Shown here piece after piece: positions 3,879 to 26,244 of a stretch of 64,000 bases of DNA. How positions within the stretch are numbered: position 1 is the first letter of the stretch; each line of letters starts with the position of its first letter. The position numbers and the translations under genes were made by a program. The notes below the pieces were generated by a model that saw nothing but the letters and a program-made list of their open reading frames with translations, was not told the origin of the DNA and did no database searches. The DNA is from Afifellaceae bacterium. GTDB lineage: Bacteria > Pseudomonadota > Alphaproteobacteria > Rhizobiales > Afifellaceae. Location of the stretch: NCBI GenBank assembly GCA_028284625.1, contig JANQRH010000029.1, forward strand, positions 62,001 to 126,000. Direction: 5' to 3'.

Positions 3879-3994
3879 GACCAACCTCCATGCTCAAGTT
3901 AACCAGAGTAATCCCATCGCTGTGGCGATTGGAACCTTATCTCACCGTGCCCAGCGGAAACGGCGAGAAACCGCCCAAGCCGCTTGCTTCTCAG

Positions 3995-5670: not shown

Positions 5671-5685
5671 CAATAGCGTATCAAA

Positions 5686-5715
5686 CGAGCCGGAAGCGTT
5701 TCTGCTCCCGGCTCG
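5686..5715 (-). terminator. Stem-loop between binding protein and permeases
   Basis: An inverted repeat CGAGCCGG / CCGGCTCG (8 bp), extended by AGC/GCT across one mismatch, with a 6-nt loop, sits 21 bp past the binding-protein stop. No U-tract is evident, so a partial terminator or RNA stabiliser is the likely role. Confidence 0.55.
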
Positions 5716-5736
5716 CCTATTTGATCTCCGATCCGG

Positions 5737-6885: not shown

Positions 6886-6942
6886 CCATACCTCCCTCGC
6901 TTTGCGGCTCGAATGCGCGAGCCCTCCTGTTCCCGCACCCGG

Positions 6943-8049: not shown

Positions 8050-8253
8050 GCGATCCCATCCGTTGCTTCTTCGTGCTGTGGCAGCTGGCCGACGCGGAGC
8101 CTCGCGCGGCGCGGCCGATCGATCGTGCAGGGGAGGCGCGCGCAATCGCCTCTCGCGGCCAACGACCAGCGCAGTTCCCCAATTGGCGTCGTCAAATGAA
8201 GACCTCCGGTGCTCTGCTGAAGTTTGTGCAGCACGACGCGACATGACAATTGG

Positions 8254-9363: not shown

Positions 9364-11576
9364 GCCGGGGCCACCTCCGAACGGTCGACGACCGGTTGGC
9401 GCTCTGAGGCAGCACGCCGTCCGAGTTTCCTTTGGCTGACAAAGAGCTGCACGAGGCTTACCGCAGCAAGCATGACAAGGATAAGAACGGAGGAATAGGC
9501 AATCGCCAGACCGTAATCGCCGTTCTCCACCCGGCCGATGATGTAGGCGGTGGCCATGTGATAGTCGGCGGAAACGAGAAAGATCACGGCGCTGATCGAT
9601 GTGATGGCGCGGACAAAACTAAAGACGAGTGCTGCGGCGATCGCCGGCCGCAGGAGCGGCAGGATCACCTTACGCACGGTGACGAAGCTGTTGGCGCCCA
9701 ACGTCAGCGACGCCTCGTCGAGATTCCTGTCGAGTTGGCTCATGGCCGCGACACCGGCGCGCAGCCCGACCGGCATGTTCCGGAACATGAAGCAGATGAT
9801 CAGGATCATGCCAGTGGCGGTCAGCTCTATCGGCGGAACGTTGAACGCCAGGATGTAGGAAACACCGATGACCGTGCCGGGAATTGCGAAGCTCAGCATG
9901 GTTCCGAACTCGAAAGCCTCGCGGCCGGCGAACCGCTGACGCACGAGCAGATAGGCCGTCAGCAGGCCGAGGCCGGTCGTTAACGGTGCGGCGATCGCGG
10001 AGATTGTGATGGTCGTCCAGAACGAATTCCAGGCCGCGCCGCTCCACACCAGGCCAAACTCGCCGGTGGTGACGGAGAAGGCGTCAGCATAGTGCCGCAA
10101 TGTGAAGGAGTGATCGCGTCCCCAGGTTTCGACGAAGCCGCCGAACATGACCATGCAGTAGATCACCAGCATCATCAGCGTCCACGGAATCACGACGGCC
10201 AGAATCGGCCAGGTCAGACGCCGCGGAAGTGTCGCATGCAAGCCGGCGTCTCCCTTGCCGGTCACCGTGACGTAGGACTTTTTGCCGACCCAACGGCGCT
10301 GCACATAGAAAGCCGTCAGCGTGAAGGTCAGGAGCACGATCGCCAGTACGGCAGCGCGGCCCTGGTCATTTTGCGCACCGACAATGGCAAAGAATATCTC
10401 CGTGGAGAGAACGCCGTAATTGCCGCCGAGCACAAACGGATTGCCGAAATCGGCCATGCTCTCGATGAAGCCAAGCAGGAATGCGTTGGCGAGTCCCGGC
10501 CGCATCAGCGGAAACGAGACGGTGGAGAAGGTCGTCCAGGCGTCGGCACGCAGCGTCTGCGCGGCTTCCTCCATTGACGGGCTGACGCCCTCCACGACGC
10601 CGATCAACACAAGAAAAGCAATCGGCGTGAAGGCCAGCATCTGCGCCAGCCAGATGCCGGTGAAGCCGTAGATCCATCGTGTCGGGGGGATGTCGAACGC
10701 CCAGTCCATGAACTGCGTCACGACGCCGGCGCGGCCGAACAGCAAGATCATGGCGAGCCCGATGACGAAGGGCGGCGTGATAATCGGCAGCACGGTGAGC
10801 ACGCGAAACGCCCTGCCCATTCGCAGCCGCACCCGCGTCGTCACCAAGGCAAATGCAAGGCCCAGGACAGTGGAGCCAAACCCGACAGACACGGCCAGGA
10901 TGAGGGAGTTCCATGCGACGCCGCAGCTGACGTTTTCGGCGAGGCAGCGCAGTCCCCAAATCTTGGCGTCGGTGATCTTCTCAACAAACAGCGTGAACGT
11001 GTAGACGCCGTCATTGTCCTGAAACGCGCTTATCAAAATGCGCGAGACGGGGAAGAAGACGAAGGCGGCGATCAACGCGATGACAAGGCCGATCGATCCG
11101 GCGACAAACACATCGCCGGAGACGGAGCCACGGGCCGCAAAGCTACTCGTCAACAGGAAGAGGAACGACGCGGCCAGAAGAACGGCGCCGTAGCCCATGC
11201 CGAATTGACGTTCGACCGGGCCGAAAAGCGCCTCAAGCGAAGCGAATTCCCAGCCGCCGATGCCGATCGTGAAGCCCTGAAGGAACAGATATCCGAGCCC
11301 GCCGACACCGGCGAAGGTCAACGTCGGTGCGAAGTAGCGCGCTGACGGATCGGTGCGGACCACCAGCAATGCGGCCAGCACAAAGACTAAAAGCGGCGCG
11401 AGCCACACTTTGCCGTGGACAGCAATCTGGATGATTGCGGGGGCGGTGTCGCGGTCCAACGGGTAGCCGTCAAGCAGCCACCCGAAGGACCAGAATGCGT
11501 CCTCCAACGCATACCAAGGCAGGACGAAGAAACCGATGAGGCCGACAGCGAGCCACAGAGAAACGACGCGGTTCAT
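9360..11576 (-). CDS. Fused double-domain ABC permease, FbpB/AfuB-like
   Basis: A 738-residue membrane protein carrying two permease modules in one chain, the layout of FbpB/AfuB. The first coupling loop is MEEAAQTLRADAWTTFSTVSFPLMRPG, in the middle of the protein. The second is DEASLTLGANSFVTVRKVILPLLRPA, near the C-terminus. An extra block of hydrophobic segments precedes the first module. The order binding protein, fused permease, ATPase matches afuABC. Iron(III) transport is the generic annotation; sugar phosphate is the alternative suggested by the binding protein and the neighbouring phosphatase. Confidence 0.9.
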   Translation of the reverse strand: MNRVVSLWLAVGLIGFFVLPWYALEDAFWSFGWLLDGYPLDRDTAPAIIQIAVHGKVWLAPLLVFVLAALLVVRTDPSARYFAPTLTFAGVGGLGYLFLQGFTIGIGGWEFASLEALFGPVERQFGMGYGAVLLAASFLFLLTSSFAARGSVSGDVFVAGSIGLVIALIAAFVFFPVSRILISAFQDNDGVYTFTLFVEKITDAKIWGLRCLAENVSCGVAWNSLILAVSVGFGSTVLGLAFALVTTRVRLRMGRAFRVLTVLPIITPPFVIGLAMILLFGRAGVVTQFMDWAFDIPPTRWIYGFTGIWLAQMLAFTPIAFLVLIGVVEGVSPSMEEAAQTLRADAWTTFSTVSFPLMRPGLANAFLLGFIESMADFGNPFVLGGNYGVLSTEIFFAIVGAQNDQGRAAVLAIVLLTFTLTAFYVQRRWVGKKSYVTVTGKGDAGLHATLPRRLTWPILAVVIPWTLMMLVIYCMVMFGGFVETWGRDHSFTLRHYADAFSVTTGEFGLVWSGAAWNSFWTTITISAIAAPLTTGLGLLTAYLLVRQRFAGREAFEFGTMLSFAIPGTVIGVSYILAFNVPPIELTATGMILIICFMFRNMPVGLRAGVAAMSQLDRNLDEASLTLGANSFVTVRKVILPLLRPAIAAALVFSFVRAITSISAVIFLVSADYHMATAYIIGRVENGDYGLAIAYSSVLILVMLAAVSLVQLFVSQRKLGRRAASERQPVVDRSEVAPA

Positions 11577-11617
11577 TGCAGTTTCGCCGATACTGGCCTC
11601 ATCGGGTCATGGCGTTC

Positions 11618-12646
11618 CTATCGTGGCAACGCTCCAACTTCGTCGTCCCAGCGCTTGAGCAGTCGCTTGCGCTCCGCCGATGAGCCGTATTTGGCGAAGT
11701 CGTAATCGATCAACGTCAGCTTCTCCAGGTCGGGCGCCTCGTCGGGCGGCTGTGCCGAGGCGTTAGACGGCACTTGATAGGCTTTGGCTTCGCGAGCGCG
11801 CGTCTGGATGTCTGCCCGAAGCGCAAAATCGTAAAACGCCTTGGCGCTTTCCATGTTGCGCGCATTCTTGATGATGCTCATGGAGCCGATCTCGTAGCCG
11901 GTGCCCTCGCAAGGCGCGACGATCTCAACGGGAAAACCGCTCACGATCTGGGTGACCATGTCGTGCATGAAGGTAATGCCGATCGTCGTTTCACCACGCG
12001 CGGCTGCCTTGATCGGCGCGGAGCCGGATTTCGTGTACTGATTGACGTTCTTGTGCATGGCCTTCATGAGCTCGAAGGCCTCCTCCTCGCCCATGATCTG
12101 TACAAGCGTGGCGAGCGTCGTGTAGGACGTGCCGGAGGAGTTCGGATTGGCGATCTGAACCTCTCCCTTATATTCCGGCTTCGCCAGATCGGCCCAGCAT
12201 TCCGGCGCCGGCAGGCCCTTTTCCGCCAGGAGCTCGGTGTTGTAGCCAATGCCTAGAGCGCCGGCATAGATGCCGACGGTCTTGTTATTTGCGGACTGGG
12301 CCTGACTTTGCGCCCAAGGATGCAGATCGTCGAACAGCGGCGACGTATATTCCTCCGTCAAACCCTCTTCAGCAGCCTGAAGGTGGGGGTCGCCGGTGCC
12401 GCCCCACCAGACGTCACCCTTGGGATTACGGGCTTCCGCCTTGATCTGCGCAAACGTCTCGCCGGAGCTCTTGCGGGTCATGGCCACGTCGATGCCGGTT
12501 TCTTTCGAGAAGGCCTCGACCATGAGATTGCACCACTCAATCTGCGGACTGCAGTAGAGCGTCAGTTTGTCGGCGGCATTCGCCGGTCCGAAATTCACCG
12601 CCGCGAGCGACAAAGCGCCTAGCAGCAACAGTTTGTTCTTCTTCAT
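11618..12646 (-). CDS. Periplasmic binding protein, AfuA/FbpA-like
   Basis: A 342-residue binding protein with a signal peptide (MKKNKLLLLGALSLAAVNFG) cleaved near ANA. The start has a GGGAGG Shine-Dalgarno. It carries the KSSGETFAQIKAEARNPKGDVWWGGTGDPHLQAA block, which I associate with AfuA-type proteins, a group whose best-studied member binds hexose phosphates rather than iron. The Tyr pair used by FbpA for iron is not obvious. It lies between a sugar-phosphatase-like gene and the fused permease, in line with a phosphorylated ligand. This is inference from family memory. Confidence 0.82.
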   Translation of the reverse strand: MKKNKLLLLGALSLAAVNFGPANAADKLTLYCSPQIEWCNLMVEAFSKETGIDVAMTRKSSGETFAQIKAEARNPKGDVWWGGTGDPHLQAAEEGLTEEYTSPLFDDLHPWAQSQAQSANNKTVGIYAGALGIGYNTELLAEKGLPAPECWADLAKPEYKGEVQIANPNSSGTSYTTLATLVQIMGEEEAFELMKAMHKNVNQYTKSGSAPIKAAARGETTIGITFMHDMVTQIVSGFPVEIVAPCEGTGYEIGSMSIIKNARNMESAKAFYDFALRADIQTRAREAKAYQVPSNASAQPPDEAPDLEKLTLIDYDFAKYGSSAERKRLLKRWDDEVGALPR

Positions 12647-12721
12647 TACGTCCTCCCTTTGCTCGTTCCAGCTGAGTGCTTCGATCGGTGGATTGCCGGC
12701 CGGAGCGCGATGGGCATGCCT

Positions 12722-13594
12722 CTATCCGGCCGCGACCTCCTGGGCGTGGCCGCCACTTTGCGGATGACCGGACGTCGACGGATCGTTGTCGGCGATCCCA
12801 CCGATGAACTTGATATGCTCAATCAGGGCCGGCGCGGCGGCAAGCGCGGCATTGCCTCTGCGCAGCCCGTCCCCGTCGAGGAAGTCGTTGGTCCAGCCGC
12901 CGGCCTCCTCGACAAGCAAAAGGCCAGCCAGACAGTCCCAGGAATTCATGTGCGGCTCGTAGTAGCCAATCAGCCGACCGGCAGCGACCCAGGCCAAGGA
13001 CAGGGCGCCGGACCCGCAGCGATGATACATGCCGCCGAGGCTCAAGAGCCGGCTGAGCGCCGTCAATGTCAGATCTGAATCGGCGCGGAGCGAATGGCCA
13101 ATGGCGACCAGGCCCGCCCCAAAGTCCGTCGCATCGGCAGCTTTGATCGGCGTCTCATTGACGAACGCGCCGTGGCCGCGCGCGGCGGTGAATATCTCAT
13201 CGTGAACTGGGTCGAAGACAACGCCGATCTCCGTCCTGCCGTTTCGCATCCACGCAACTGAGATGCACCAGGACGGGATGCCGAAGACGAAGCAGTCCGT
13301 GCCGTCGATCGGGTCGACCACCCACGTGCCCACGCCGTGCGAATCGACGGCTTCATCCGCGCCGTATTCTTCGCCAAGGAAACCATCCTCGGGAAATCGT
13401 TCCGCAAGGCTTCTGCGGATCGCCAATTCGACATTCCTGTCGGCATTGCTGACGCGGTCTTGGACGCCCTTCTGGTCCACCTCCAACAATTGCGGCCGGC
13501 GAAACATCTCCAGCGCCTGACGCCCTGCATTGCGGGACACGTCCGTCGCGTACTTAAGCCTCTCAAGCAGCAAATCGTTTGGATCTGTCGCCAT
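12722..13594 (-). CDS. Inositol monophosphatase family phosphatase
   Basis: Mg-dependent phosphatase of the IMPase/FBPase superfamily, 290 residues from ATG 13594 (MATDPNDLLL). The metal-site motifs are complete: GEE (74-76), DPIDGTD (94-100) and NSWD (217-220). Possible substrates are inositol phosphates, sugar phosphates, histidinol phosphate or PAP. It precedes an AfuABC-like importer by 75 bp on the same strand. If that system imports sugar phosphates, this enzyme could dephosphorylate them, or an imported inositol phosphate, and feed the inositol pathway further along. An upstream in-frame extension (to 13654) looks unlike the family. Confidence 0.85.
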   Translation of the reverse strand: MATDPNDLLLERLKYATDVSRNAGRQALEMFRRPQLLEVDQKGVQDRVSNADRNVELAIRRSLAERFPEDGFLGEEYGADEAVDSHGVGTWVVDPIDGTDCFVFGIPSWCISVAWMRNGRTEIGVVFDPVHDEIFTAARGHGAFVNETPIKAADATDFGAGLVAIGHSLRADSDLTLTALSRLLSLGGMYHRCGSGALSLAWVAAGRLIGYYEPHMNSWDCLAGLLLVEEAGGWTNDFLDGDGLRRGNAALAAAPALIEHIKFIGGIADNDPSTSGHPQSGGHAQEVAAG

Positions 13595-13767
13595 CACTCG
13601 CACTGAACACGATTGCAGTTTCTTCACTATATGGTGCCCGCAGGCGAGGCACAAGCCAAAGGCTTGCGGGATAAATCGTCTTTATTACAATGAATTAGAT
13701 GGTTAACTGTCAGTGACTTGTGCAAAGCGCAGGCCGATCACGTGTGCGGCCGTTCGCCTTGAGTTGC

Positions 13768-14757
13768 CTAGAGTGTCGTGCCCCGAACGACGAGTTCCGG
13801 CTCGATGACATGCGGCTCTGCCTGCGGTTTGTCGCCGCCGCCGCGGGCCGCAATTCGGTTCATGAGAATCTGGATCGGCTGGTCAACTGCGTTGTGTATC
13901 GTCGTCAGGTTGAAGACCGGCCACGCCGCCATAGGGATGTCGTCGTACCCGATGATGGCGACATCGTTCGGCACGTGCAGTTTCATCACCGCCGCCGCCT
14001 GGATCGCGCCGAGCGCCATCTCGTCGTTGAAGCAGAAGAGGGCGTCGGGCAGCTTTTTCGCGGAGAACAATTCCATCGCCGCCCGGAAGCCGCCGTTGAA
14101 ACCTTGCGGGCCGGTCGCTTCGGCAAAGATCGACTGCCCGCCGTCGCGTAATCCAGCCTGAAAGCCTTCTCGGCGTGCTTTGTTGGAGAAGGTCATCAGC
14201 GGCTTGGTGATGTAGGCGACGCGCTCATGGCCGCAGCGCACCAGGTAACGCGCGGCGAGCCGGCCGCCGCCGAGATTGTTCCCGGTGACGCACTCCAGGC
14301 CCGGGTCTGCCACGTAGCGCTCATAAAGGAATATCGGCACGCCGAACCGGCGCAGTCGGTCGACGACCTTGGGCGAGACAGTGCCGCCCACCACGACGAT
14401 AGCGTCGACCTGGTAATCGGCGGCGTTCAGAATGGATTCGTCGATGCTTGCATCGCTTGATGCAGGGATCACCAGCGCCTGCTTTCCGCGATGCGTGATC
14501 TCCACAATGAGCCGTTCAATCAGCATCGTGTTGTGGATGCTGTCGTGCCCGGCAGTGACAAGCGCAATAAGATCGGTCTTTCCGCCGATCAACGAGCGGG
14601 CGATCGCGTTGGGCCGGTATCCGAGCTCCTCGGCTGCGGCCAGGACGCGGCGGCGAAGCTTGGCGGAAACTTGCCCCTGGCCGAAGGTCCGGGAAACGGC
14701 AGCCCTGGAGACGCCGGCGAGTTCCGCTACATCCTTTGCGCTGATCCGACGTTGCAA
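13768..14757 (-). CDS. LacI-family transcriptional regulator
   Basis: Repressor with an N-terminal LacI helix-turn-helix (ISAKDVAELAGVSRAAVSRTFG) and a periplasmic-binding-protein-like sensor domain, 329 residues from TTG 14757. I chose this TTG because AGGAG lies 7 nt upstream and the product then starts MQRRISAKDV, the usual LacI N-terminus; an earlier TTG at 14787 adds 10 atypical residues. It sits downstream of permeases 14954-16756 and upstream of the phosphatase, so it probably senses the sugar carried by transporter D. A degenerate palindrome at 14849-14864 could be its own operator. Confidence 0.88.
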   Translation of the reverse strand: MQRRISAKDVAELAGVSRAAVSRTFGQGQVSAKLRRRVLAAAEELGYRPNAIARSLIGGKTDLIALVTAGHDSIHNTMLIERLIVEITHRGKQALVIPASSDASIDESILNAADYQVDAIVVVGGTVSPKVVDRLRRFGVPIFLYERYVADPGLECVTGNNLGGGRLAARYLVRCGHERVAYITKPLMTFSNKARREGFQAGLRDGGQSIFAEATGPQGFNGGFRAAMELFSAKKLPDALFCFNDEMALGAIQAAAVMKLHVPNDVAIIGYDDIPMAAWPVFNLTTIHNAVDQPIQILMNRIAARGGGDKPQAEPHVIEPELVVRGTTL

Positions 14758-14848
14758 CGTCGCGCTCCTGTTGGTTCGGAGGTGCAAGGCAGCGCCGGCA
14801 CTTCGATGCGCCCGCGCATGCTCCTCCGTGACGCGTCATTCACTCAGA

Positions 14849-14953: not shown

Positions 14954-15799
14954 TCAGCTTTTGACGGACCCTGCGGTCATTCCGGCAAGGAAGTATCTCT
15001 GTGCGAAGAGATAGAGGACGAGAAGCGGCAGGGACCCCAACACGCTCATCGCCATCATCTCGTTCCACTCGAAGGCGTGTTGTCCCATCAGTAGCTGAAT
15101 GCCGATGGGAACGGTTCTCAGCTCCATCGACTTCGTCAGTGTCAGGGCAAACAGGAATTCGTTCCAAGCCAGCAGGAACGTATAGACCGCCGTTGCGACG
15201 ATCCCGGGAACCGACAGGGGAACGATGACACGCCAAAGCGCTGTCCAGCTGCTGCCGCCGTCGACCAGAACGGCCTCGTCCAGCTCCTTCGGCAGGGTGT
15301 TGATGTAGCCGGTCATCAGGAGAATGGCGTAGGGCAGCGTGAAGACCATGTAGGTCAGGATCAGCGCGAGATAGGTGTCGAAGATGCGGAAGAAGACGAC
15401 CATCCCGAAATAGGGGATGAGCAAGGTGATCGGCGGAATGGTCTGCGTGCTGATGATGATGACATTGAAGAGCTTCTTGTAGCGAAACTGGTAGCGGCTG
15501 AAGCCGTAAGCGGCGAGGATCGCGACGATCAGCGTCAGAAACGCCACCATTCCTGAGACGAAGTAGCTGTTGATGAAGAAGCGTATCTTCGTCGGGTCGC
15601 TGAAGATCGATTCATAGGCGGTGAGCGTGAACACCTTCGGCAATATGCGCGGCGGGAGCGCGAAGATTTCCGTGTTCGATTTGAGCGAGCTGAACAGCAT
15701 CCACACGACCGGGAAGGTGGCGAAGATCAGACCGACCGCCAGGCCGACATAGACGGCCAGCGAGGAGAGGAGTTCTGATTTCAGAGGATTGAAACGCAT
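14954..15799 (-). CDS. Sugar ABC transporter permease, MalG-like
   Basis: A 281-residue inner-membrane permease of the carbohydrate CUT1 class. It has a short cytoplasmic N-terminus, several hydrophobic segments and the coupling motif DEAVLVDGGSSWTALWRVIVPLSVPG. It starts 3 nt after permease 15803-16756. Together with binding protein 16878-18125 it makes an importer with no ATPase gene in the operon; an ATPase such as 8254-9363 or one elsewhere must serve it. The nearby kinase and aldolase suggest a hexose- or ketose-like substrate. Confidence 0.92.
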   Translation of the reverse strand: MRFNPLKSELLSSLAVYVGLAVGLIFATFPVVWMLFSSLKSNTEIFALPPRILPKVFTLTAYESIFSDPTKIRFFINSYFVSGMVAFLTLIVAILAAYGFSRYQFRYKKLFNVIIISTQTIPPITLLIPYFGMVVFFRIFDTYLALILTYMVFTLPYAILLMTGYINTLPKELDEAVLVDGGSSWTALWRVIVPLSVPGIVATAVYTFLLAWNEFLFALTLTKSMELRTVPIGIQLLMGQHAFEWNEMMAMSVLGSLPLLVLYLFAQRYFLAGMTAGSVKS

Positions 15800-15802: not shown

Positions 15803-16756
15803 TTATGCATTCGCTGTCGATCGTTGGTGCCGGATGTAGAAGTAGGTCAGGCACATGGAGAGGACGAAGATGACGATGGCGCTGGCCGATGCCAGCGAGA
15901 ACTCGTAGCGCGTGAATGCGAGCTTGTAGGTATAGGTGCTCAGCATTTCGGTTGCGTGGATCGGGCCGCCGCCGGTGGTCATCCAGACAAGCGGAAAGAC
16001 CTGCATGGTCCAGATGAAATCGAGCAGCGCGATGCTCGTGATGATCGGCTTGAGCTGCGGCAGCGTGATGTAGAAGAAGTTCTGGACAGTGTTGGCGCCG
16101 TCGACGCGCGCCGCCTCATAATATTCCTTTGGGATGCCTTGCAGCCCGGCGAGCAGGCTGACCATGTAAAGCGGATAGCCCGCCCAGATGTTCACGAATG
16201 TCAGCGCATGGATCGCCGTTGCCGGTGAGGAAAACCACTCGACCTTGAAGTCGATGATGTTCAGGGCGATCAGGTAGCCGTTGATGACGCCGTTGGGATC
16301 CAGGATCAGGCGCCAGATGATGGCGATGATGACGGCCGTGAAGAGCCAGGGCAGGATGTAGAGAACGCGCAAGACGTTCCGCACCATTGGATGCACGCGG
16401 GACGAATTGAGCATGAGGGCAAATGTGAGGCCGATCAGGAGGTGAAACACGACACTCATGATCGTGAAGTAGAGCGTCTGCCCGAGCGACTGCCAGAAAA
16501 TCTCGTCGGAGAAGATCTCCCGGAAATTGCGAAATCCGACGAAGCTTGAGTCGGGTCGCAGGATGGCCCCGTCCATCAGCGAATAGCGGAACACCATCGC
16601 CATGGGGAAGAGCATCAGCAGGGAGAAGAGCGCCATGGCGGGCGCAACAAAGAGGTAGGGAAGCGCTGCGCCGCGCCGGCTGTTCTTGTGAGATCGCCGA
16701 CCGTTTTTCGTGACGGCCGTTGCGAAGAGCGCTCCGTCAGCTTCTCGGTGCGCCAA
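15803..16756 (-). CDS. Sugar ABC transporter permease, MalF-like
   Basis: A 317-residue CUT1-type permease partner of 14954-15799. The probable start is TTG 16756, with AGGAG 8 nt upstream. A basic N-terminal tail of about 30 residues (KNGRRSHKNSRRG) precedes the first helix LPYLFVAPAMALFSLLML. The coupling motif is EAARVDGANTVQNFFYITLPQLKP. It is separated from the binding-protein gene by a strong hairpin at 16815-16855. Confidence 0.88.
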   Translation of the reverse strand: MAHREADGALFATAVTKNGRRSHKNSRRGAALPYLFVAPAMALFSLLMLFPMAMVFRYSLMDGAILRPDSSFVGFRNFREIFSDEIFWQSLGQTLYFTIMSVVFHLLIGLTFALMLNSSRVHPMVRNVLRVLYILPWLFTAVIIAIIWRLILDPNGVINGYLIALNIIDFKVEWFSSPATAIHALTFVNIWAGYPLYMVSLLAGLQGIPKEYYEAARVDGANTVQNFFYITLPQLKPIITSIALLDFIWTMQVFPLVWMTTGGGPIHATEMLSTYTYKLAFTRYEFSLASASAIVIFVLSMCLTYFYIRHQRSTANA

Positions 16757-16877: not shown

Positions 16878-18125
16878 TCAGAACTCCTCGGCCCATTTGG
16901 CTTGCGCCTTGGCAGCTGCTTCGGCAGCGCTCTGGTTGCCCTCAAGCATCTGCTGCACTTCCACGCCAAGCATCCGCATGAGTTCCTCCGCAACCGGCAG
17001 GCCGACGAACTCGTTCGCCAGATATCCGGTCTGGAAGATCTCAAACGCCGTCCCGAAGAGCTCGTCCGCCGCGACGAAGTCAGGCGTCGCGTTCACATTG
17101 CCGGGGAAGGCGTTGGCGATCGACACCAGCTTGGCGTTGACTTCGGTGCTCATGAGATAGGCGACGAGCTTGAACGCTTCTTCCTTATGCTCGCTGTTCT
17201 CGGCGATGCCGATGCCCCAGGACGCGTAGGGAAGGCCGCGGCGGCCGTCATATCCGTCCATTGCCGGCAAAGCGGTGATACCGAAGTTCAGGTCCGAATT
17301 GCGCTCGCGGATCAAGTTGATGTGCGCCAATGAGTCGACCATCATGGCGACGCGGCCGTTGACGAACTCCTCAACCTTGTCCTGTTCCTTCTTGGCGAAG
17401 GAACCCGGCGATATCAGGCCCTCGTCATACATCGATTGGATGTATTCAAGCGTCCCGACCACGTTGGCATTCGTCAGGTCGGGCATCCCGTCCTTCATCA
17501 TGCTCTTGCCGGAAGCCCAGACCCACGACATGACGTCGTTCTGAATCCCGTTGGGCGCCTGCAGCGACAGGGGCAGAACCCAGCCGTACTGGTTGTTGTC
17601 GGAATCGGTCAGCTTCCGGGCCGCTTCCACGAACTCCGTGCGGCTTGACGGCATCTGGTCGATGCCGGCGTTCTTCAGAAGGTCGAGGTTCACAAAGACC
17701 GGATAGACAAACGACGCGACCGGGAACATGTAGCTGTTCCCGTTCAGGCTGATGATCGCCGCGACTTGGCTCTTGTCGAAATCGGCGCCTGCCATCAGGT
17801 CGTCCATGGCGGCAATGGCGCCTTGCTTGGCGAGGTCGTTGACCCATGCGCCGTCAAGGCCGACCACATCGCTCAGCGTGCCGGAGGCGGCGCCGACGAC
17901 GATCTGATCGCGGGTCGCTGAATACGGGCCGCTTACGAGATTGACCTTGATGCCCGGGTTCTGGGCTTCAAAGTCATCCATGATCTGGCGAAGCGCTCCG
18001 GACGGCAGCTCCGGCTCCCACCACTGAATGAACTCCAGCGTGGTGTCGGCTTGCGCGGACGACAAACCGATCGCGATGGATAAAGCCGCAGATTTTAAGA
18101 GTGTCAGGGATTTGGCAAATCTCAT
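16878..18125 (-). CDS. Sugar ABC transporter solute-binding protein
   Basis: A 415-residue CUT1/MalE-type binding protein. ATG 18125 has GGAGG shortly upstream. The signal peptide (MRFAKSLTLLKSAALSIAIG) ends near AQA before DTTLEFIQWWEPEL. The N-terminal FEAQNPGIKVNLV block is typical of family 1 sugar-binding proteins. It heads the operon with permeases 15803-16756 and 14954-15799. The 308-bp region upstream contains two oppositely oriented TTTGCGGT sites that also occur near the DeoR gene, suggesting control by that repressor. Confidence 0.9.
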   Translation of the reverse strand: MRFAKSLTLLKSAALSIAIGLSSAQADTTLEFIQWWEPELPSGALRQIMDDFEAQNPGIKVNLVSGPYSATRDQIVVGAASGTLSDVVGLDGAWVNDLAKQGAIAAMDDLMAGADFDKSQVAAIISLNGNSYMFPVASFVYPVFVNLDLLKNAGIDQMPSSRTEFVEAARKLTDSDNNQYGWVLPLSLQAPNGIQNDVMSWVWASGKSMMKDGMPDLTNANVVGTLEYIQSMYDEGLISPGSFAKKEQDKVEEFVNGRVAMMVDSLAHINLIRERNSDLNFGITALPAMDGYDGRRGLPYASWGIGIAENSEHKEEAFKLVAYLMSTEVNAKLVSIANAFPGNVNATPDFVAADELFGTAFEIFQTGYLANEFVGLPVAEELMRMLGVEVQQMLEGNQSAAEAAAKAQAKWAEEF

Positions 18126-18433
18126 TCTTTCCTCCCTCTGGTGGATCGCCTCCACAACACGTCGTGGAAACGTAAGACGGTCACCACGAACTTCGACGCC
18201 CCCTGGCGCCCCCTGGTCACAAAGACAGGCTCTGCGGGAGAACCGGATCGCCTCCGACCAGCGTCAGCACCGGCAGACGAGCTCCCGCAGCGTTTTATCG
18301 CGTAGTTTTGCGGTATTATCAGCGAGGCCTAACGAGGTCAATAAGTTAGACCGCAGAAAACCGCAAATATCGGCGAGAGAAGCAAGGCGGAGCGCGGCGC
18401 ATCCGTATCGGGCGTCTGCTTGCTGCCCTTCGA
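18126..18433. promoter_or_regulatory. Promoter region of transporter D with TTTGCGGT inverted sites
   Basis: No gene is visible in this 308-bp gap. It contains TTTTGCGGT at 18306-18314 and, 42 bp further on, AAAACCGCAAAT at 18357-18368, which is the same motif on the other strand (TTTGCGGT core). The motif resembles the direct repeats in front of the DeoR gene (20818-20829 and 20871-20882). It probably holds the promoter and operator of the sugar transporter operon. Confidence 0.45.
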
Positions 18434-19441
18434 TCATTGCGAGTCGTGATACCAATATCGGCTCAACCGCTCAGCGACGTCCCGCTCGGGGATATTCGGC
18501 TTGCAGGGCGTGCCATGCTTCACGGTGATATCGGCGAGCTCGGCCAGTCGTGACGTGGCGCGCGCCACGCCGTCCTTGTCGGATTGCGCGTCGCCCGACG
18601 GCACGGCATCTCTCCAGATAGAGCGTCCCGCCATGAAGCCGGAAGCGCCGGCGGCGCAGGCGATACGAACCTGCGATTTGAAGGCGTCGTAATCGACACC
18701 GGCCGACAAGATCACCCACGGCGCGTCGACCGATTCCGTGATGCGTCTGCACCTCTCCTCTGAGGCCTTTCGGCCTTCATCCGTATCGACGCGTCCGGGA
18801 AATTCCAGCTTGAGCACATCTGAGCCGTGTTCGCTTGCCGTGATGGCGGATTCCACGATGCCCTCAAAGCGCCTTTCCTGCCACGCGGACTGGCTGGGGT
18901 CCTCGCCATCGAGCGGGTTCCAGATGGGCTCAACGACCAACGGCAGGGACACCTTCGCACATTGGTCGGCCAGATCCCGGACGATCCGCTTCTGTGTTTC
19001 TTGAACCGGGCTGTCCGGCCGGAAATACCAGAGAAGCTTGCACATGCTCCCACCCATCCTTTTGATTTTGGATGGGTTCCATGCGGTTCTGAATTGCGTC
19101 TCGCCGCGCGGACCTGTGCCGGCGTAGCCGCCTTCTTCCTCGACGCAGACGATCAGACCGACATCGCGCGGCAGCACGCCGGAAAGAATGGAATGTGCGG
19201 CGGCATATTCGGGATCGAGCAAGAACGAGCTCACCTGACCCGACAGCGCCGATATCAGCGCCAGCTTGCTTGCGACGGTTTGCTCAAAAGACACCTTCGA
19301 CAGATCGGGGTCGATCAGTTCCTTGTAATCATCCCCATGATCCAGAGCGCACGTTATGAAGAAGCCGTCAGACGTCGTAACCTGCTGAATACCACGTGTT
19401 TTTCCTAAATCCGTAATCGGGTTGTCGATGCCGGGGGCCAT
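18434..19441 (-). CDS. LacD-type tagatose-bisphosphate aldolase family protein
   Basis: Class I (Schiff-base) aldolase of the LacD/DeoC superfamily, 335 residues from ATG 19441 with GGAGA upstream. The motif GSDVLKLEFPG places the Schiff-base lysine at K211. CALDHGDDYK near residue 31 and LSAGV in the C-terminal half also fit LacD. The family cleaves tagatose-1,6-bisphosphate or related ketose phosphates to triose phosphates; the sulfofructose-1-phosphate aldolase YihT is a relative. It follows a sugar kinase by 22 bp, so kinase and aldolase likely form consecutive steps. The exact ketose is unknown. Confidence 0.85.
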   Translation of the reverse strand: MAPGIDNPITDLGKTRGIQQVTTSDGFFITCALDHGDDYKELIDPDLSKVSFEQTVASKLALISALSGQVSSFLLDPEYAAAHSILSGVLPRDVGLIVCVEEEGGYAGTGPRGETQFRTAWNPSKIKRMGGSMCKLLWYFRPDSPVQETQKRIVRDLADQCAKVSLPLVVEPIWNPLDGEDPSQSAWQERRFEGIVESAITASEHGSDVLKLEFPGRVDTDEGRKASEERCRRITESVDAPWVILSAGVDYDAFKSQVRIACAAGASGFMAGRSIWRDAVPSGDAQSDKDGVARATSRLAELADITVKHGTPCKPNIPERDVAERLSRYWYHDSQ

Positions 19442-19463
19442 GACGTCTCCTTTGTTCTTGGCG

Positions 19464-20726
19464 CTATCGATTGCTCGCAGCCAGAACGGCCAGGGTTCCG
19501 GCGAGAAACGAGTCGCCAAGGCCGATCGTGGTGGCGGGGTGCATGTGATGGGGCGTCGGACAACCGACGAAATGGCCGTGCGCGCCCGCCGGGCGAATTT
19601 CGGGCCAGGGAAGCGGGTGAAGCGTTGCGCCGGGGGGCAATCCAACAGGGGCGACGGGCCGGCCGGCGGCAGCGCGCGCCGATGCGGTGAGGCTTCCGTA
19701 GCGAATCGCCCTCAGCTCTTTGGCCGGATCGTCGCGCGTCAACGACATAACCCATCGATCCGCGTGGACGTTGACTCGGTCAAAGCCATAGCTCTCGGCA
19801 ACGCGATGCACGGCCTCGTCGAGCGAGGCTTCGTCGATGGCATCCTCGCCGTTCAGCGTCGCAAGCTCAGCCGCATTCATCCCCACGGAATTGCAAGTGC
19901 CGCCAAAGGTCTTCAGCACTTTGACGAGCCCGGCGGGCGTGGTGAAGTCGGCAAGTTCAAGGTGCAGGAGCGGTACGCCGGACGATGCCCATTGCGAAGC
20001 CAATCGATGCGCCCAGATCAACGCGTCATCAAAGGCGTCGCCGGACAGCGCGTTGAAGCCGGACACAATCGCTGCGCCGATTTCGCCGTCGAAGTCGGCG
20101 GTGTAGTCCGCGAACGCGTCGTCAAACTCAAACTCGTCCTGGCCGAACCGGAGAATGATCCGGTCTGCGCGCGGCGATGCTTCCGGCCCGCTATTCGCCG
20201 CGAACTCGATGATCGGATGACGGAATGCGCGGCGGCTGCCCGATGCGGCGCAACTGTCGCTCGGCGGCGCAAGGACGACGTTTGCATGGAGGAGCTTTGT
20301 GAGGTCGGGGTCGCGATGCTCAAGCGCGAGTACCGGGCAGGCTCCAATCAAGGCAAGCTGATTGGCCGCCTGTACGGCCGTCCCGCCGGGCAACGTCCTC
20401 TTTGGTTGGATGGCATCGAAGAATCGCAGACCATCCGGCCAACTAAACTCAAGCTCTCCGCCCCGGCCGGAGTTGATATATTCAAGAAGCTGCCGTTTCA
20501 GCTCCTTTTCTGTCTCTCCACCAGATCGATCCAGATACTCAATGATCGTATCGGCGTCGTATATATGATCAATACATGCAGAAAATCCGCAAAAAACTGC
20601 CGGAAGATCGGTCGCTGCCCTTTCTACATCTTCCGCGAGGGATTTGTATTGATGTTCCAGGCGCACGATTCTTGCTCCGTCAGCACCGCAGGGTTCGCTT
20701 CCCGAGGAACCCTGAGAATGCGCCAT
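19464..20726 (-). CDS. ADP-dependent phosphofructokinase/glucokinase family kinase
   Basis: Predicted ribokinase-fold sugar kinase of the ADP-dependent glucokinase/phosphofructokinase family, 420 residues. Visible motifs are CGFSACIDH (46-54) in the sugar-binding lobe, LPGGTAVQAANQLA (112-124), the ADP-kinase block NSVGMNAAEL (279-288) and the catalytic GLGDSF (402-407). Family members of about 450 residues phosphorylate glucose or fructose-6-phosphate with ADP; they are best known from archaea and are uncommon in bacteria. An alternative GTG start at 20666 has GGAG 8 nt upstream and may be the true one. It forms an operon with the LacD aldolase and is divergent from a DeoR regulator. ADP use is inferred. 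Confidence 0.75.
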   Translation of the reverse strand: MAHSQGSSGSEPCGADGARIVRLEHQYKSLAEDVERAATDLPAVFCGFSACIDHIYDADTIIEYLDRSGGETEKELKRQLLEYINSGRGGELEFSWPDGLRFFDAIQPKRTLPGGTAVQAANQLALIGACPVLALEHRDPDLTKLLHANVVLAPPSDSCAASGSRRAFRHPIIEFAANSGPEASPRADRIILRFGQDEFEFDDAFADYTADFDGEIGAAIVSGFNALSGDAFDDALIWAHRLASQWASSGVPLLHLELADFTTPAGLVKVLKTFGGTCNSVGMNAAELATLNGEDAIDEASLDEAVHRVAESYGFDRVNVHADRWVMSLTRDDPAKELRAIRYGSLTASARAAAGRPVAPVGLPPGATLHPLPWPEIRPAGAHGHFVGCPTPHHMHPATTIGLGDSFLAGTLAVLAASNR

Positions 20727-20896
20727 ACGCCCCCATTAGCCGCAATGTTTCCGGTCGTTTGCGGATAATGCCCGTGTTCCGGCGATGAATTGCCGTCAGA
20801 GTGCGTTTTTTTACGTTTTTTTGCGGGTTACCAGCATTGTATGCGGGGGTCAAGGGTGATAACACATCGCTTTTTGCGGGTTCGCCGGAGAAAGAC
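20727..20896. promoter_or_regulatory. Divergent kinase/DeoR promoter with TTTTTGCGGGTT direct repeats
   Basis: The 12-mer TTTTTGCGGGTT occurs twice, at 20818-20829 and 20871-20882. A third related site, TTTGCGGAT, is at 20758-20766. CGTTTTTTT also repeats with a 10-bp period (20804 and 20814). DeoR-family repressors commonly bind such repeated sites, so these are likely operators of the adjacent regulator for both directions. Confidence 0.5.
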
Positions 20897-21700
20897 ATGG
20901 CTCAAAGGGACGCGAGTGCGACCCCCAGGCTGCCGCAGAGAAGGCGCAACGACATCTTGTCCCTCGTTGAGCAGGATGGGCATGTCAATGTCTCCGAACT
21001 GGCGGAAATGTTCCGCGCGTCGGACGATACAATCCGCAGAGATTTGGATGCTTTGGCCGCTCAAGGGAAGCTGAAACGCGCCCATGGCGGTGCGATTTCG
21101 CTTGAGCGAGAAAGCGCCGATCACAAGCCGATCGGCGACCGCCAGTTTGCCAACGTACCGGCCAAGACGCGTATCGCGAAGCAGGTTGGCGATCTCATTT
21201 CCACTGGTGAGCGGCTTTTCATCAATGGCGGGACAACGACGTTGTGCGTTGCCAAAGAGCTCGTTTCGACAACGCGCCTGACAATTCTGACGAACAATCT
21301 TCTTGTCCCGGCCGTCATGGAGGAAAGCACCAGCTGGGACCTTTATGTTCTGGGCGGGCGCTATCACGCCGGCTCGCAGGTCACCACGAAGACCGAGGGG
21401 CTCGATTTCATGACCGCCGTCACGACCGACACGGCGATCATCGGGATCGGCGGCGTTTCCGTGGAGAGCGGCTTCACGGTGAGCCTCTTTGAGGATGCAG
21501 CCGCTATCGAGCAGATGATCACACGGGCGAGGCGGCTGATTGTGGTCGCTGATTCAAGCAAGTTCGGGAAGGATCATCTGGTGCCGGTGGTGACAAGAGG
21601 TCACGAGACGACCCTTGTCACGGACGAGATGCCTGACGCTGGCTTAGCTGAGTGGCTGGCCGCGAATTCCATAGAGCTGCTTGTGGCGGGACCAACGTAG
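20897..21700 (+). CDS. DeoR-family transcriptional regulator
   Basis: Sugar-phosphate-responsive repressor, 267 residues from ATG 20897, which has GGAGA just upstream. The N-terminal winged helix includes VNVSELAEMFRASDDTIRRDLDALAAQGKLKRAHGGA. The C-terminal DeoR sensor domain has INGGTTTLCVAKEL and the late DSSKFG element. The frame is open upstream to 20801, but that stretch is promoter sequence. It is divergent from the kinase and aldolase genes and probably controls them and transporter D through TTTTGCGG-type sites. Confidence 0.9.
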   Translation: MAQRDASATPRLPQRRRNDILSLVEQDGHVNVSELAEMFRASDDTIRRDLDALAAQGKLKRAHGGAISLERESADHKPIGDRQFANVPAKTRIAKQVGDLISTGERLFINGGTTTLCVAKELVSTTRLTILTNNLLVPAVMEESTSWDLYVLGGRYHAGSQVTTKTEGLDFMTAVTTDTAIIGIGGVSVESGFTVSLFEDAAAIEQMITRARRLIVVADSSKFGKDHLVPVVTRGHETTLVTDEMPDAGLAEWLAANSIELLVAGPT

Positions 21701-22569: not shown

Positions 22570-23145
22570 TCACGCCTCCTTCCAGCGGCGCACAGGTCCC
22601 GCGTCGATCCCGAACAGGTCGAGCGCCCGAACCGCGGTAAAGGTGACCATATCGTCGATGCTCTCCGGCATGGGATAGAAAGCCGGAACCGGTGGCATGA
22701 CGATCGCGCCGAACTCCGTCACCGTCACCATGTTGCGGCAATGGCCGAGATGAAGCGGTGTTTCGCGAACGAGCAGGACCAGCCGCCGCCGCTCCTTGAG
22801 CGTGACGTCGGCGGCGCGGGCGACGAGCGTTGCGCCGGAGCCCGCCGCGATCTCGCCCAGCGTCTTGGCCGAGCACGGCGCGACGATCATGCCCTCCGTC
22901 CGGAACGATCCGCTGGCGATCGCGGCGGTCACGTCGTCATTGTCATAGGTCTTGTCGGCGAGGGCGGTCACCTCGCGCACCTTCATCGACGATTCGTAGG
23001 CCAGTGCCACCTGCGCCGGCTTGGAGATGATGAGGTGGGTCTCGTAGTCGCTGCTTCGCAGAAGCTGTAGCAGCTTGATGCCATAGACCAGACCGGATGC
23101 GCCGGTCATGGCGATCAAGAGGCGGCGGGGCGTAGCATCCGTCAT
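22570..23145 (-). CDS. UbiX-family flavin prenyltransferase
   Basis: A 191-residue flavoprotein with the UbiX N-terminus LLIAMTGASGLVYGIKLLQLL. The phosphate- and flavin-binding PCSAKTLGEIAAG segment and the C-terminal MVTFTAVRALDLFGID are also typical. UbiX attaches a prenyl group to FMN to make prenylated FMN, the cofactor of UbiD decarboxylases. Its position one gene away from a UbiD-family enzyme (24883-26244) fits a dedicated maturation partner. It starts 55 bp after the ammonia-lyase stop. Confidence 0.9.
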   Translation of the reverse strand: MTDATPRRLLIAMTGASGLVYGIKLLQLLRSSDYETHLIISKPAQVALAYESSMKVREVTALADKTYDNDDVTAAIASGSFRTEGMIVAPCSAKTLGEIAAGSGATLVARAADVTLKERRRLVLLVRETPLHLGHCRNMVTVTEFGAIVMPPVPAFYPMPESIDDMVTFTAVRALDLFGIDAGPVRRWKEA

Positions 23146-23200
23146 GGTGCAGAGGAACTCGTTGGCGCGGCGATTACTGCCTTACGATACAGGACAGGCC

Positions 23201-24832
23201 TTACGCCAGCGATCCCAACTTCTGCTCTACCGCCTCGCGTAGCGCGCCTGCGTCGACCAGCTCGCGCGCCGCAACAAGGTCGGCATGCAGCCAACGGTCG
23301 CCGTCGAGCGCTGCGGGAATGCGTCCCCGGATCGCCTCATAGGCGGCCTGAGTGCCGCCGCCGAGATCGAACGCGCCGAGCGTCTCCTTGGTAACACTCA
23401 GGGCCTGTGCTGCGATCAACAATTCGGTGCCGACGATCTGGCTGACGTTCTCCACAATCGTGCGCGCCTTGCGGGCAGACCAGGTGGAATTGGAGACGTG
23501 GTCCTCCTGGTTGCTTTTCGTGGGAACGGAATCGGTGCCGGCGGGCCAGCACAGCGTCTTATTCTCCGTCACCAGCGCCGCCATGGAGCAATGCGCGATG
23601 GCGTAGCCGTAGTTCACGCCAGTCAGCTTGGCGACGAGGTTGCTGGGCAGGCCATAGGACATTGTCGGGTCGAGCATGCGATAGCTTCGCCGCTCGCTGA
23701 TGCTGCCGACATCCGTCATGACGGCCGCCAAGTGATCCATGACCTGCGCGACGTACTGGCCGTGGAAATTCCCTTGGCTCAGCGCCTCATATCCCCCTTG
23801 GCCGTCTTCAAAGATCAGGGGATTGTCGGTGGCGGCGTTCATCTCCACTTCCAGCACGCGGTCGACGTAGTCGAGTGCGTCGCGCGCCGGTCCGTGGACC
23901 TGCGGTGCGCATCTTAATGAGTAAGCGTCCTGCACGCGCTGCGGGATCGTCTGGTGGGTGACGCTGATATCGTCGGGCAGGCGCACCTGCCTGGCCTCTT
24001 CGGTGCAGCGTTGGCTTCCATCGACGAGGCGGCGCACATTCTCCGCCGTCGCGACCTGCCCGGCATGCGGGCGCGCTTCGTGCACGCGCGGATCAAAGGC
24101 GGCCATCTCGCAGCGCATGGCCTCAAGGCTCAGGGCGAGAGCGATGTCGGCCGACACGAGCACATTGCGCGCCTCTTCGGCGGCAAGAACCGCCACGGCG
24201 AGCGAAACCGTGCTGCCATTGATCAATGCCAAGCCGTCCTTGGCGCGAAGCTCAAACTCAGGCTCCAGCCCAGCGCGCTTCAGCGCGTCCTGCGCCGGCA
24301 GGCGCTCGCCCTTATAAAAGGCCTCCGCGCTGGGATGACCGGTGAGCGTGCCTGTCAGATAGGCGAGGGGGGCAAGGTCGCCGCTCGCGCCGACGGAGCC
24401 GATCTGCGGAATCACCGGATGAACGCCGCGATTGAGCATGGCGAGAAGCCGCTCCACGGTTTCGCGGCGCGGCCCCGAAACGCCGCGAACAAGCGCGTTG
24501 ATGCGAAGCACCAACAGCGCGCGGACGGCGTCCTCCGGAAACGGCTCGCCCACGCCTGCGGAATGCGCGTGCACGAGCATTTTTTGAAAGAGGTCGATAT
24601 GCTCGACGGGGATGTGCGTGTCCTTCAACCGGCCGAGGCCGGTGTTGAATCCGTAGACGGGCTTGGCGCCCTCCTTGAGCCAGTTGGCCTCGATGTAGCT
24701 GCGTGCTGCTTCCAACCTCTCCCAGGCGGACTGCGCCACACTGATCGGCTCGCGACCGTCCTCGTCCAATTGCCGAGCGACGCGCACCAGATCGGCAGCT
24801 TTTAACGAGTGGCCGTCGAGCACGAGGGTCAT
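23201..24832 (-). CDS. Histidine/aromatic amino acid ammonia-lyase (HutH-like)
   Basis: MIO-dependent ammonia-lyase of 543 residues. The MIO-forming tripeptide is ASG at 149-151 (GSVGASGDLAPL), and the catalytic Tyr is Y60 in VYGFNTGLG. At the substrate-selectivity loop it reads LVHAHSAGVG: A89-H90 instead of Ser-His of bacterial histidine lyases, His-Leu of tyrosine lyases or Phe-Leu of phenylalanine lyases. The His makes a histidine-like substrate most plausible. It lies between UbiD and UbiX genes and away from any hut gene, so it is unlikely to be ordinary hutH; ergothionase-type or another histidine-derivative lyase is possible. Confidence 0.85.
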   Translation of the reverse strand: MTLVLDGHSLKAADLVRVARQLDEDGREPISVAQSAWERLEAARSYIEANWLKEGAKPVYGFNTGLGRLKDTHIPVEHIDLFQKMLVHAHSAGVGEPFPEDAVRALLVLRINALVRGVSGPRRETVERLLAMLNRGVHPVIPQIGSVGASGDLAPLAYLTGTLTGHPSAEAFYKGERLPAQDALKRAGLEPEFELRAKDGLALINGSTVSLAVAVLAAEEARNVLVSADIALALSLEAMRCEMAAFDPRVHEARPHAGQVATAENVRRLVDGSQRCTEEARQVRLPDDISVTHQTIPQRVQDAYSLRCAPQVHGPARDALDYVDRVLEVEMNAATDNPLIFEDGQGGYEALSQGNFHGQYVAQVMDHLAAVMTDVGSISERRSYRMLDPTMSYGLPSNLVAKLTGVNYGYAIAHCSMAALVTENKTLCWPAGTDSVPTKSNQEDHVSNSTWSARKARTIVENVSQIVGTELLIAAQALSVTKETLGAFDLGGGTQAAYEAIRGRIPAALDGDRWLHADLVAARELVDAGALREAVEQKLGSLA

Positions 24833-24882
24833 GCTGTTCTCCTTGGTATTGTCATGGGGCCGTTCCGCCCCGAGATGTCGGA

Positions 24883-26244
24883 TCAGTATTTGTCGATGTC
24901 GCGCTTCACGCGTTGCATGAGGTCGTCGGGCGGCTTGGCGAATTCGGAACGGCTGCCGGGCTCGCCGTCACCCGGCCGGGTGGTTGCAACCATGCCCACC
25001 TTGGTGACCGTCCCGTTCTCTTCAAGCGGGTCGCAGCGATCGGCCTTCACGCCCGGCAGGACGATCAGATCCTCATGGCCGCGAAAGCGGGCGGCGAGCG
25101 CCCATTCCACCTGCGTCCAGTCTTCCGGATCGAGGTCGTCGTCGATCACGACGACCAGCTTCAAGAGGTTCACCTGGCCCATGGCCATGAGCACGGCGCG
25201 TTTGCCTTCGCCGCGCTTCGCCTTGTGCATCGTGATGATGGCGTGCAGGCGGCCCATGCCACCGTCGGTGATCACGACCCTGCGGACCGAATGAATGACG
25301 CGGCGGAGCGCCTGGCACACGGTTGCGCCGATAGCGATGCCGCCAAGGAGGCAATGCTCCGACGCGTAGCCGGGCAGGACCGCCTGATAGATCGCGTCTC
25401 GGCGGCGGGTCAGGCATTGCACGTTCACCTCAATGCCGCTGCCATAATAGACGTAGAATCCGGGGAACTCTGAGACGGCGCCCTCATCGATGGAGCGGTC
25501 GGGATGCAGCGTTCCCTCCAGGACGATCTCCGCTTCGGCCGGCACCTCAAGATCGACGGTGGCGCAGCGGGTGAGGCGGAGCGGCTCGCCAAGCAGACTG
25601 CCGGCGATATCGTATTCGTCGTCGCCGAATTCGACATACATCTGCGACGCCAGCAGGACCGCCGGGTGATTGCCGATGGCGATCGCGATCTCCAACGGCC
25701 GGCCGAGTGCCGCAGCCCGATTGGCGAGAATTGTCAGGTGATGGCTGGGTGCAATACCGGCCATCAGCCGGTTGCCGCCTTCAAGCCTGAGGCGAGCGAT
25801 CGATATGTTGCGGCGTCCGGTGTCGGGGTCTTTCGCAACGATCACGCCGGCGGAGATATAGGGGCCGCCCTCCTTCTCAAACCATGTCGGAACCGGCAGA
25901 AGGCAGCCGATATCGAGGTCGTCCTTGATCACCATCTCCGATACCGGCGCCTCGTCGACCAGGACCGGCGGCAAGCGCTTGGCGAGTGCGGCCTGAAGGG
26001 TTTCGTCAAGGTCCTCCGTCGGCACGCCCAGGCCGCGGGCGATCTTCGCCCGCGTGTTCATCACATTGGCGACGACCGGCACATCATGCTCGGCAATTGC
26101 CGCGAAGAGCTGCGCCGGGCCGCGATCGCGCTCGATGAGCACTGCGGCGATCTCATATTCGGCGCTGACAGTGCGGCTTACGACATGGAGGTCGCCGGTC
26201 GCCTTCAGGTCGTCGAGAAAGCCGCGCAGGCTTTGATGGTTCAT
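24883..26244 (-). CDS. UbiD-family prenylated-FMN (de)carboxylase
   Basis: A 453-residue UbiD-fold decarboxylase. The catalytic triad of the family is recognisable: R151 in NISIARLRLEG, and E254/E259 in DEGAVSEFPG, with the usual five-residue spacing. The family reversibly decarboxylates acrylic, aromatic or heteroaromatic acids using prenylated FMN. It is the first gene of an operon with an ammonia-lyase, UbiX and a creatininase-family enzyme. The acrylate formed by a lyase (urocanate-, cinnamate- or coumarate-like) is an obvious candidate substrate. That link is inference. Confidence 0.88.
   Translation of the reverse strand: MNHQSLRGFLDDLKATGDLHVVSRTVSAEYEIAAVLIERDRGPAQLFAAIAEHDVPVVANVMNTRAKIARGLGVPTEDLDETLQAALAKRLPPVLVDEAPVSEMVIKDDLDIGCLLPVPTWFEKEGGPYISAGVIVAKDPDTGRRNISIARLRLEGGNRLMAGIAPSHHLTILANRAAALGRPLEIAIAIGNHPAVLLASQMYVEFGDDEYDIAGSLLGEPLRLTRCATVDLEVPAEAEIVLEGTLHPDRSIDEGAVSEFPGFYVYYGSGIEVNVQCLTRRRDAIYQAVLPGYASEHCLLGGIAIGATVCQALRRVIHSVRRVVITDGGMGRLHAIITMHKAKRGEGKRAVLMAMGQVNLLKLVVVIDDDLDPEDWTQVEWALAARFRGHEDLIVLPGVKADRCDPLEENGTVTKVGMVATTRPGDGEPGSRSEFAKPPDDLMQRVKRDIDKY

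Follow-up and report, generated by a model that had tools for sequence, protein, structure and literature searches.

This locus raises the question of which function a sugar kinase of the PF04587 family, best known for ADP use in archaea, fulfils in a bacterium where its gene neighbours that of a class I aldolase. Both genes lie on the minus strand of the window, i.e. the whole stretch of 64,000 nucleotides from an Afifellaceae bacterium that was analysed, at the positions given in an earlier note on this DNA. The gene of the kinase (19464..20666, ADP-dependent-kinase family) belongs to an ORF open to ATG 20726, and the ATG (19441) of the DeoC/LacD-type class I aldolase gene (18434..19441) is 22 bases past the kinase stop. 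The downstream genes (18155-14954), on the same strand, encode a CUT1-type solute-binding protein (16878..18155; PF01547) and two ABC sugar permeases (15803..16756 and 14954..15799; both PF00528). A DeoR-family regulator gene (20897..21700, plus strand; PF08220/PF00455) is divergent. Judging from the letters, the kinase probably starts at GTG 20666, which has a GGAG upstream, rather than at ATG 20726, the regulator probably at ATG 20897, and for the binding protein ATG 18125 appears to fit better than 18155.

The closest locus, from a Geminicoccaceae MAG (L067), has the same order (DeoR / kinase-aldolase-binding protein-permease-permease) with 49-83% identity (83% for the binding protein, 75% and 80% for the first and second permeases and 66% for the regulator), and no other sugar-pathway gene was recognised there on reading the locus. 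This minimal cassette includes no isomerase or dehydrogenase, and the conserved block no importer ATPase. A ketose used by the minimal cassette would therefore be either imported or produced elsewhere.

The two motifs by which the earlier note had recognised the kinase, NSVGMNAAEL and GLGDSF, are located at residues 279-288 and 402-407. Its assignment to the ADP-dependent kinase family holds, as PF04587 is passed with 88.6 bits (cut-off 27) and the Pfam search gives no PfkB match at E 0.01. Neither of the ADP-glucokinase equivalogs is reached (NF010642, 69.3 bits for a cut-off of 387; NF010641, 24.9 bits for a cut-off of 554). A profile of 22 sequences (the window kinase and 21 relatives) run against the PDB retrieves the Pyrococcus ADP-glucokinase 1ua4 (E 1.4e-23) and the ADP-phosphofructokinase 1u2x (E 3.3e-20). 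The closest fold to the AlphaFold2 model of the window kinase (alignment of 47 rows, mean pLDDT 92) is 4b8s (VIA Z 40.5, rmsd 2.6, 401 residues). The first 17 rows of the VIA list consist entirely of such kinases and of their reconstructed ancestors (Z 31-40), and the next fold family is adenosine kinase (Z 23.5). Strong canonical PF04587 kinases (235-262 bits vs 82 for the window type) were also seen in three alphaproteobacterial genomes from two other families (L004-L006).

The active site was mapped by aligning the window kinase to AncMsPFK (6c8z), the residue roles being those given in sections of PMC7948494. In this alignment, D36, E90, N181 and R206 of AncMsPFK correspond to D53, E91, H170 and R189 of the window kinase, and E282, D310/E313 and D471 to E257, N284/E287 and D405. 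The GXGD base (D405), HXE (H255/E257), NXXE (N284/E287) and the equivalent of R206, whose loss abolishes AncMsPFK activity (PMC7948494), are thus all present. Among 47 aligned kinases, E91, R189, E257, E287 and D405 are invariant, D53 is found in 46 (the remaining row having a gap) and H170 in 35, and position 284 is occupied by S in 30 sequences and by N in the other 17. The window kinase therefore has in common with the archaeal and animal ADP-dependent glucokinases and phosphofructokinases (TlGK, PfGK, AncMsPFK) the fold, GXGD, HXE, NXXE, the R206-type arginine and the glucokinase-type glutamate. It differs from them by its shorter length, by an identity of only 15-21% in structural alignments, by the shortfall against the ADP-glucokinase equivalogs, by an arginine (R193) discussed below and by its operon partners, an aldolase and a CUT1 importer.

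The residues that contact the sugar phosphate in phosphofructokinases are not kept, as there is no lysine at K179 and the residues at N181 and R212 are H170 and G195. According to sections of PMC7948494, phosphofructokinases and bifunctional enzymes retain K179 and R212, glucokinases and bifunctional enzymes retain E90, and the N181 position of TlGK is occupied by a histidine. The absence of K179 and R212 suggests a non-phosphorylated acceptor and, since the glucokinase-type E91 is kept and H170 matches the histidine of TlGK, a free sugar seems the likelier substrate.

As for the phosphoryl donor, the active-site residues and the fold give moderate preference to ADP. A kinase that would carry out the same step with ATP or pyrophosphate, only its fold being that of ADP-dependent enzymes, is a secondary although substantial possibility; it concerns the ADP clause alone and is compatible with the main explanation. 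The type of donor can change within the ribokinase superfamily (PMC5931981), the window protein is shorter than the archaeal enzymes by some 14 residues following NXXE and some 16 ahead of the last strands, and PfkB kinases fill the same place in related modules (see below). However, the invariance of R189 (the beta-phosphate arginine), E257, E287 and D405 and the wide gap that separates the ADP-dependent kinases from the next fold family argue against a change of donor. To our knowledge, no enzyme activity is known for any member of the related-kinase set. There are reports of ADP-dependent kinases from bacteria (PMC7948494).

The aldolase had been read as a Schiff-base enzyme acting through K211, and the data agree with this. 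PF01791 is matched with 70.1 bits (cut-off 23.8) and K211 (counted from ATG 19441) is invariant in 13/13 aligned aldolases; it aligns with K193 of YihT, the Schiff-base lysine of that enzyme. The DeoC/LacD class I barrel and the position of the lysine are common to the window enzyme, to the LacD tagatose-1,6-bisphosphate aldolase and to 8tnf. The LacD equivalog TIGR01232 is missed (46.1 bits for a cut-off of 432.2), and the only NCBIfam model passed is NF009498 (PRK12858 'tagatose 1,6-diphosphate aldolase' subfamily; 192.9 vs 184 bits).

The name of this subfamily suggests another order of events, in which the PF04587 enzyme would be a second kinase with a tagatose-6-phosphate-kinase role, converting a ketose-6-phosphate to the 1,6-bisphosphate for a LacD-type tagatose-bisphosphate aldolase. 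Pseudactinotalea (L135:8709-11212) indeed has two PF04587 kinases in tandem, with an SDR and a class II aldolase as neighbours. However, the window and L067 cassettes have a single kinase, a sugar imported by an ABC transporter arrives unphosphorylated, and the loss of K179, N181 and R212 with retention of E91 speaks against a phosphorylated acceptor. Such a role is considered unlikely, and phosphorylation of the free sugar is preferred.

Among solved structures, the window aldolase comes nearest to 8tnf (E 1.1e-34), which bears the title 'sulfohexulose-1-phosphate aldolase', and then to YihT (8e-24). The top matches of the window binding protein include SmoF (E 5e-17), which binds sulfoquinovosyl-glycerol. 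The substrate might thus be a ketose with a sulfonate or another anionic group; the kinase would act on its C1, and cleavage would release dihydroxyacetone phosphate (DHAP) together with sulfolactaldehyde or an analogous carboxylated product. According to sections of PMC12890257, sulfo-EMP (YihV kinase, YihT/SqiA aldolase) likewise combines a kinase with an aldolase of either class (I or II) in a route via a ketose-1-phosphate, and it too exchanges the two aldolase classes. R193, present in 41/47 kinases, would be in keeping with an anionic substrate: it aligns with S210 of AncMsPFK, which is within 5 Å of fructose-6-phosphate (PMC7948494), and the aligned archaeal enzymes do not have this arginine. 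Nevertheless, R193 is missing from most class II-paired kinases (present in 1/6), the best match of the binding protein is another CUT1 protein whose title names no ligand, the minimal locus L067 showed no recognisable gene for a reductase or dehydrogenase of sulfolactaldehyde, and no published activity for 8tnf was found in the open-access literature. In Paracoccus strain Merri, the source of 8tnf, the kinase adjoining a PF01791 aldolase, presumably 8tnf itself, is a PfkB; sections of PMC12421959 also report that this strain degrades sulfofucose by another route and that the PfkB/PF01791 pair was not significantly increased. The sulfofructose kinase of sulfo-EMP belongs to PF00294/PfkB (PMC12421959), whereas the window kinase belongs to PF04587, and in sulfosugar terms the likeness is limited to the aldolase and binding-protein similarities. 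A sulfonated or comparable anionic substrate is possible but rather unlikely, and a ketose in the wider sense remains the preferred substrate.

Whether the neighbourhood of kinase and aldolase is meaningful can be judged from its recurrence. The window kinase was used as query against 397 genomes of the order (141 genera, the window's own genome included) and gave relatives in 20 genomes and 11 genera, the own genome being counted; the search covered 10 other genomes of the family and gave no match in them. Prevalence by the Pfam model alone (3/61 and 4/337) is an undercount compared with this query. Horizontal transfer was considered from base composition and dropped: the GC of the cassette region (0.57-0.65) is not distinct, and the patchy distribution (0/10 other genomes of the family) was its sole support. 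In a collection of genome contigs, a single kinase sequence used as query gave no matches, but an alignment query did find relatives: one motif yielded 394 stretches, 284 relatives and, finally, 78 loci that were kept. These loci belong to Alphaproteobacteria, Actinomycetota, Chloroflexota, Verrucomicrobiota, Bacillota and others; plasmid records label such kinases ADP-dependent glucokinase/phosphofructokinase. As the G and L names overlap (e.g. G595 and L071 are apparently one genome), the sets of loci are not independent, and counts rest on the 78 named loci or on the G set and are never summed.

An aldolase-type partner, i.e. a LacD-type aldolase, a class II aldolase or a protein of about 338 aa described below, accompanies the kinase in 72 of the 78 loci (~338-aa protein, 43; LacD, 20; class II, 7; LacD and ~338-aa protein, 2). 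Among the six partnerless loci, the sequence of L091 stops at the kinase, the end of the contig truncates a ~338-aa gene in L092, and L102 and L138 are short contigs; at L079 and L136, which have room for a partner, the three profiles detect none. These profiles were made from 13 LacD, 5 class II and 12 ~338-aa sequences, the last from other records, and were built partly from the same loci, so that some rows match by construction. The aldolase-type matches number 71 within 3 kb of the kinase (561,100 bases) vs 6 beyond (859,200 bases), and the pairing is therefore not due to chance. On a tree of 47 kinases (that of the window and a selection from the loci), the partner labels change 9 times vs a mean of 21.7 after shuffling, and well-supported branches force at least 2 changes of the ~338-aa label. 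The grouping of kinase, aldolase and CUT1 importer as a unit, proposed in the earlier note, is borne out by this coupling, which recurs across phyla.

That note missed that the pair is one of a broader set of modules, across which the kinase and the aldolase are each exchanged. A contig carrying L042 and L071 encodes the kinase with a binding protein and permeases of the window type (68-77%), but has the ~338-aa protein in place of LacD. Another locus (L201) has the two SDR genes, the UgpC gene and the ~338-aa gene of the Agrobacterium-type cluster, but a PfkB instead of the PF04587 kinase. In Bacillus, Niallia, Brachybacterium, Demequina and Pseudactinotalea, the binding protein and permeases of the window type accompany a class II aldolase and a PF04587 kinase that is only distantly related. 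Such an exchange of parts is expected if each gene performs the same step, namely import, phosphorylation or aldol cleavage.

The ~338-aa protein has no Pfam match and no NCBIfam match over cut-off. Its AlphaFold2 model (19 rows, pLDDT 79, pTM 0.80) is a barrel that matches ADH synthase, LsrF, archaeal FBP aldolase, YihT and LacD (best Foldseek match 2qjg, E 2.8e-7; VIA Z 19.4, rmsd 3.5 over 259 residues), and its K219 is invariant and lies on strand 218-221, counted as barrel strand 6. From this model, the family is predicted to be a class I aldolase family that has so far been left unannotated. Blastp and hhalign (probability 0.1% between the two sets) gave no sign of the homology to LacD that had been expected, only the fold joining both; a ~338-aa profile run against the PDB gives LsrF with E 0.23, in a weak alignment where the lysine is one residue off.

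This family is found in 59 of the 397 genomes of the order, 5 of which (G037, G513, G555, G648 and G662) have weak partial matches, and is thus wider than the kinase. The window's own genome has a member (G000:C5:88096-89079; L150:9064-10083) that immediately precedes a PfkB kinase gene within an ABC-transporter operon. In 20 further ~338-aa loci, picked since no PF04587 kinase had been seen there, a PfkB kinase is present in 16 and directly adjacent in 14; in two others (L210 and L211), an FGGY kinase is accompanied by a fucose-isomerase-C protein, and the last two (L194 and L202, short contigs) show neither arrangement. Of six loci looked at earlier, four have a PfkB and both G059 loci are without a recognised adjacent kinase. 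The idea that the ~338-aa protein is exclusive to the PF04587 system was thus dropped.

The isomerase, FGGY kinase and aldolase of the fuculose- and rhamnulose-1-phosphate pathways offer a parallel. Their logic of an aldose-ketose isomerase, a 1-kinase and a DHAP-forming aldolase would also be that of L210 and L211, where isomerase-like, FGGY and candidate-aldolase genes adjoin, but the aldolase families differ and the window cassette is without isomerase. Some relatives of the cassette have additional genes for SDRs, an IolE-like barrel, a Gfo/Idh protein, or phosphomannose-isomerase-like or lyxose-isomerase-like cupins, as if different organisms fed in different aldoses or polyols. The IolE-like barrel and Gfo/Idh genes might also point to a cyclitol or keto-acid branch, in which the kinase and aldolase would act like IolC and IolJ and a phosphorylated keto-acid would be cleaved; IolC/IolJ, too, exists with unrelated aldolase classes. 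However, the IolE similarity is far under the cut-off (69.5 vs 290) and no iol-like gene was seen on reading the minimal cassette of L067, which makes such a branch very improbable. A sugar-catabolic role remains preferred.

From the computed families, folds, catalytic residues, conserved pairing and common synteny, the following route can be drawn. The CUT1 importer would take up a sugar (most probably a ketose), and the PF04587 kinase would phosphorylate it in its free form, most likely at C1 and probably with ADP. The class I aldolase, forming a Schiff base via K211, would then cleave the ketose-1-phosphate to DHAP and a C3 (or similar) aldehyde, and the DeoR regulator would repress both transcription units. 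The reading of the kinase as a free-sugar enzyme, the ABC import and the DHAP-type aldolase point together to a ketose-1-phosphate, which is probably the kinase product. The import, phosphorylation and aldol cleavage are supported by the non-chance pairing and by the pairing of the ~338-aa protein with PfkB or FGGY kinases. Taken as a whole, such a cassette of ketose import, PF04587 phosphorylation, class I aldol cleavage and DeoR repression is held with good confidence. A broader proposal extends to Alphaproteobacteria, Actinomycetota, Bacillota, Verrucomicrobiota and Chloroflexota, where a ketose of peripheral sugar catabolism would be prepared for aldol cleavage by ADP instead of ATP and where class I LacD, class II and ~338-aa class I aldolases would be interchangeable. 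This proposal is tentative, with somewhat less than an even chance.

Repression might be exerted through TTTTGCGG sites. This motif occurs three times in the two intergenic stretches of the cassette (18306, 20819 and 20872). Upstream of the regulator gene, it is the core (at 20819 and 20872) of a 12-nt repeat, TTTTTGCGGGTT, present as two copies 53 bp apart (20818..20829 and 20871..20882, plus strand), and a further core (18306..18313, plus strand) lies between the aldolase and binding-protein genes. In L067, it is found in both homologous intergenic stretches (4459 and 6822), near the start of the binding-protein gene (7084) and elsewhere (3537). No inverted-repeat operator was found. As the motif is short and the whole window has 6 copies vs 2.84 expected, its role as DeoR operator is a lead only. 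A creatininase-family amidohydrolase gene (PF02633; 21725-22501, minus strand) is convergent with the DeoR gene and was not seen beside the cassette in L067.

The earlier note knew of no described bacterial pathway with this kinase-aldolase pair, and no description of a PF04587 kinase-aldolase pair in bacteria was found in the open-access literature searched, judged mostly by titles and abstracts. A 2025 review (sections of PMC12965863) mentions ADP-dependent PFK-A enzymes in cyanobacteria and alphaproteobacteria, PFK-A being a different family. The cassette would be a sugar-kinase/aldolase route with an unusual kinase. If the proposal is correct, archaeal glycolysis and animal ADPGK would be joined by a second physiological role of ADP-dependent sugar kinases, in several bacterial phyla, and many genes labelled 'ADP-dependent glucokinase/phosphofructokinase' would need new names. 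The 'hypothetical' ~338-aa protein of several named genomes would gain a testable aldolase function, this so far unrecognised family being the most useful by-product of the analysis, and the pattern of swaps would provide a clean system to ask why a cell would choose ADP over ATP.

Other genes flank the cassette. The downstream stretch (759-14787) encodes an inositol-monophosphatase-family protein, a LacI regulator and several components of ABC uptake systems, one of them a binding protein of the 2-aminoethylphosphonate type, all outside the core shared with L067. On the other side (22570-26244, minus strand), consecutive genes encode a UbiX-like flavoprotein, an aromatic amino acid lyase (PF00221) and a UbiD decarboxylase, a row that looks like an ammonia-lyase and decarboxylase pathway.
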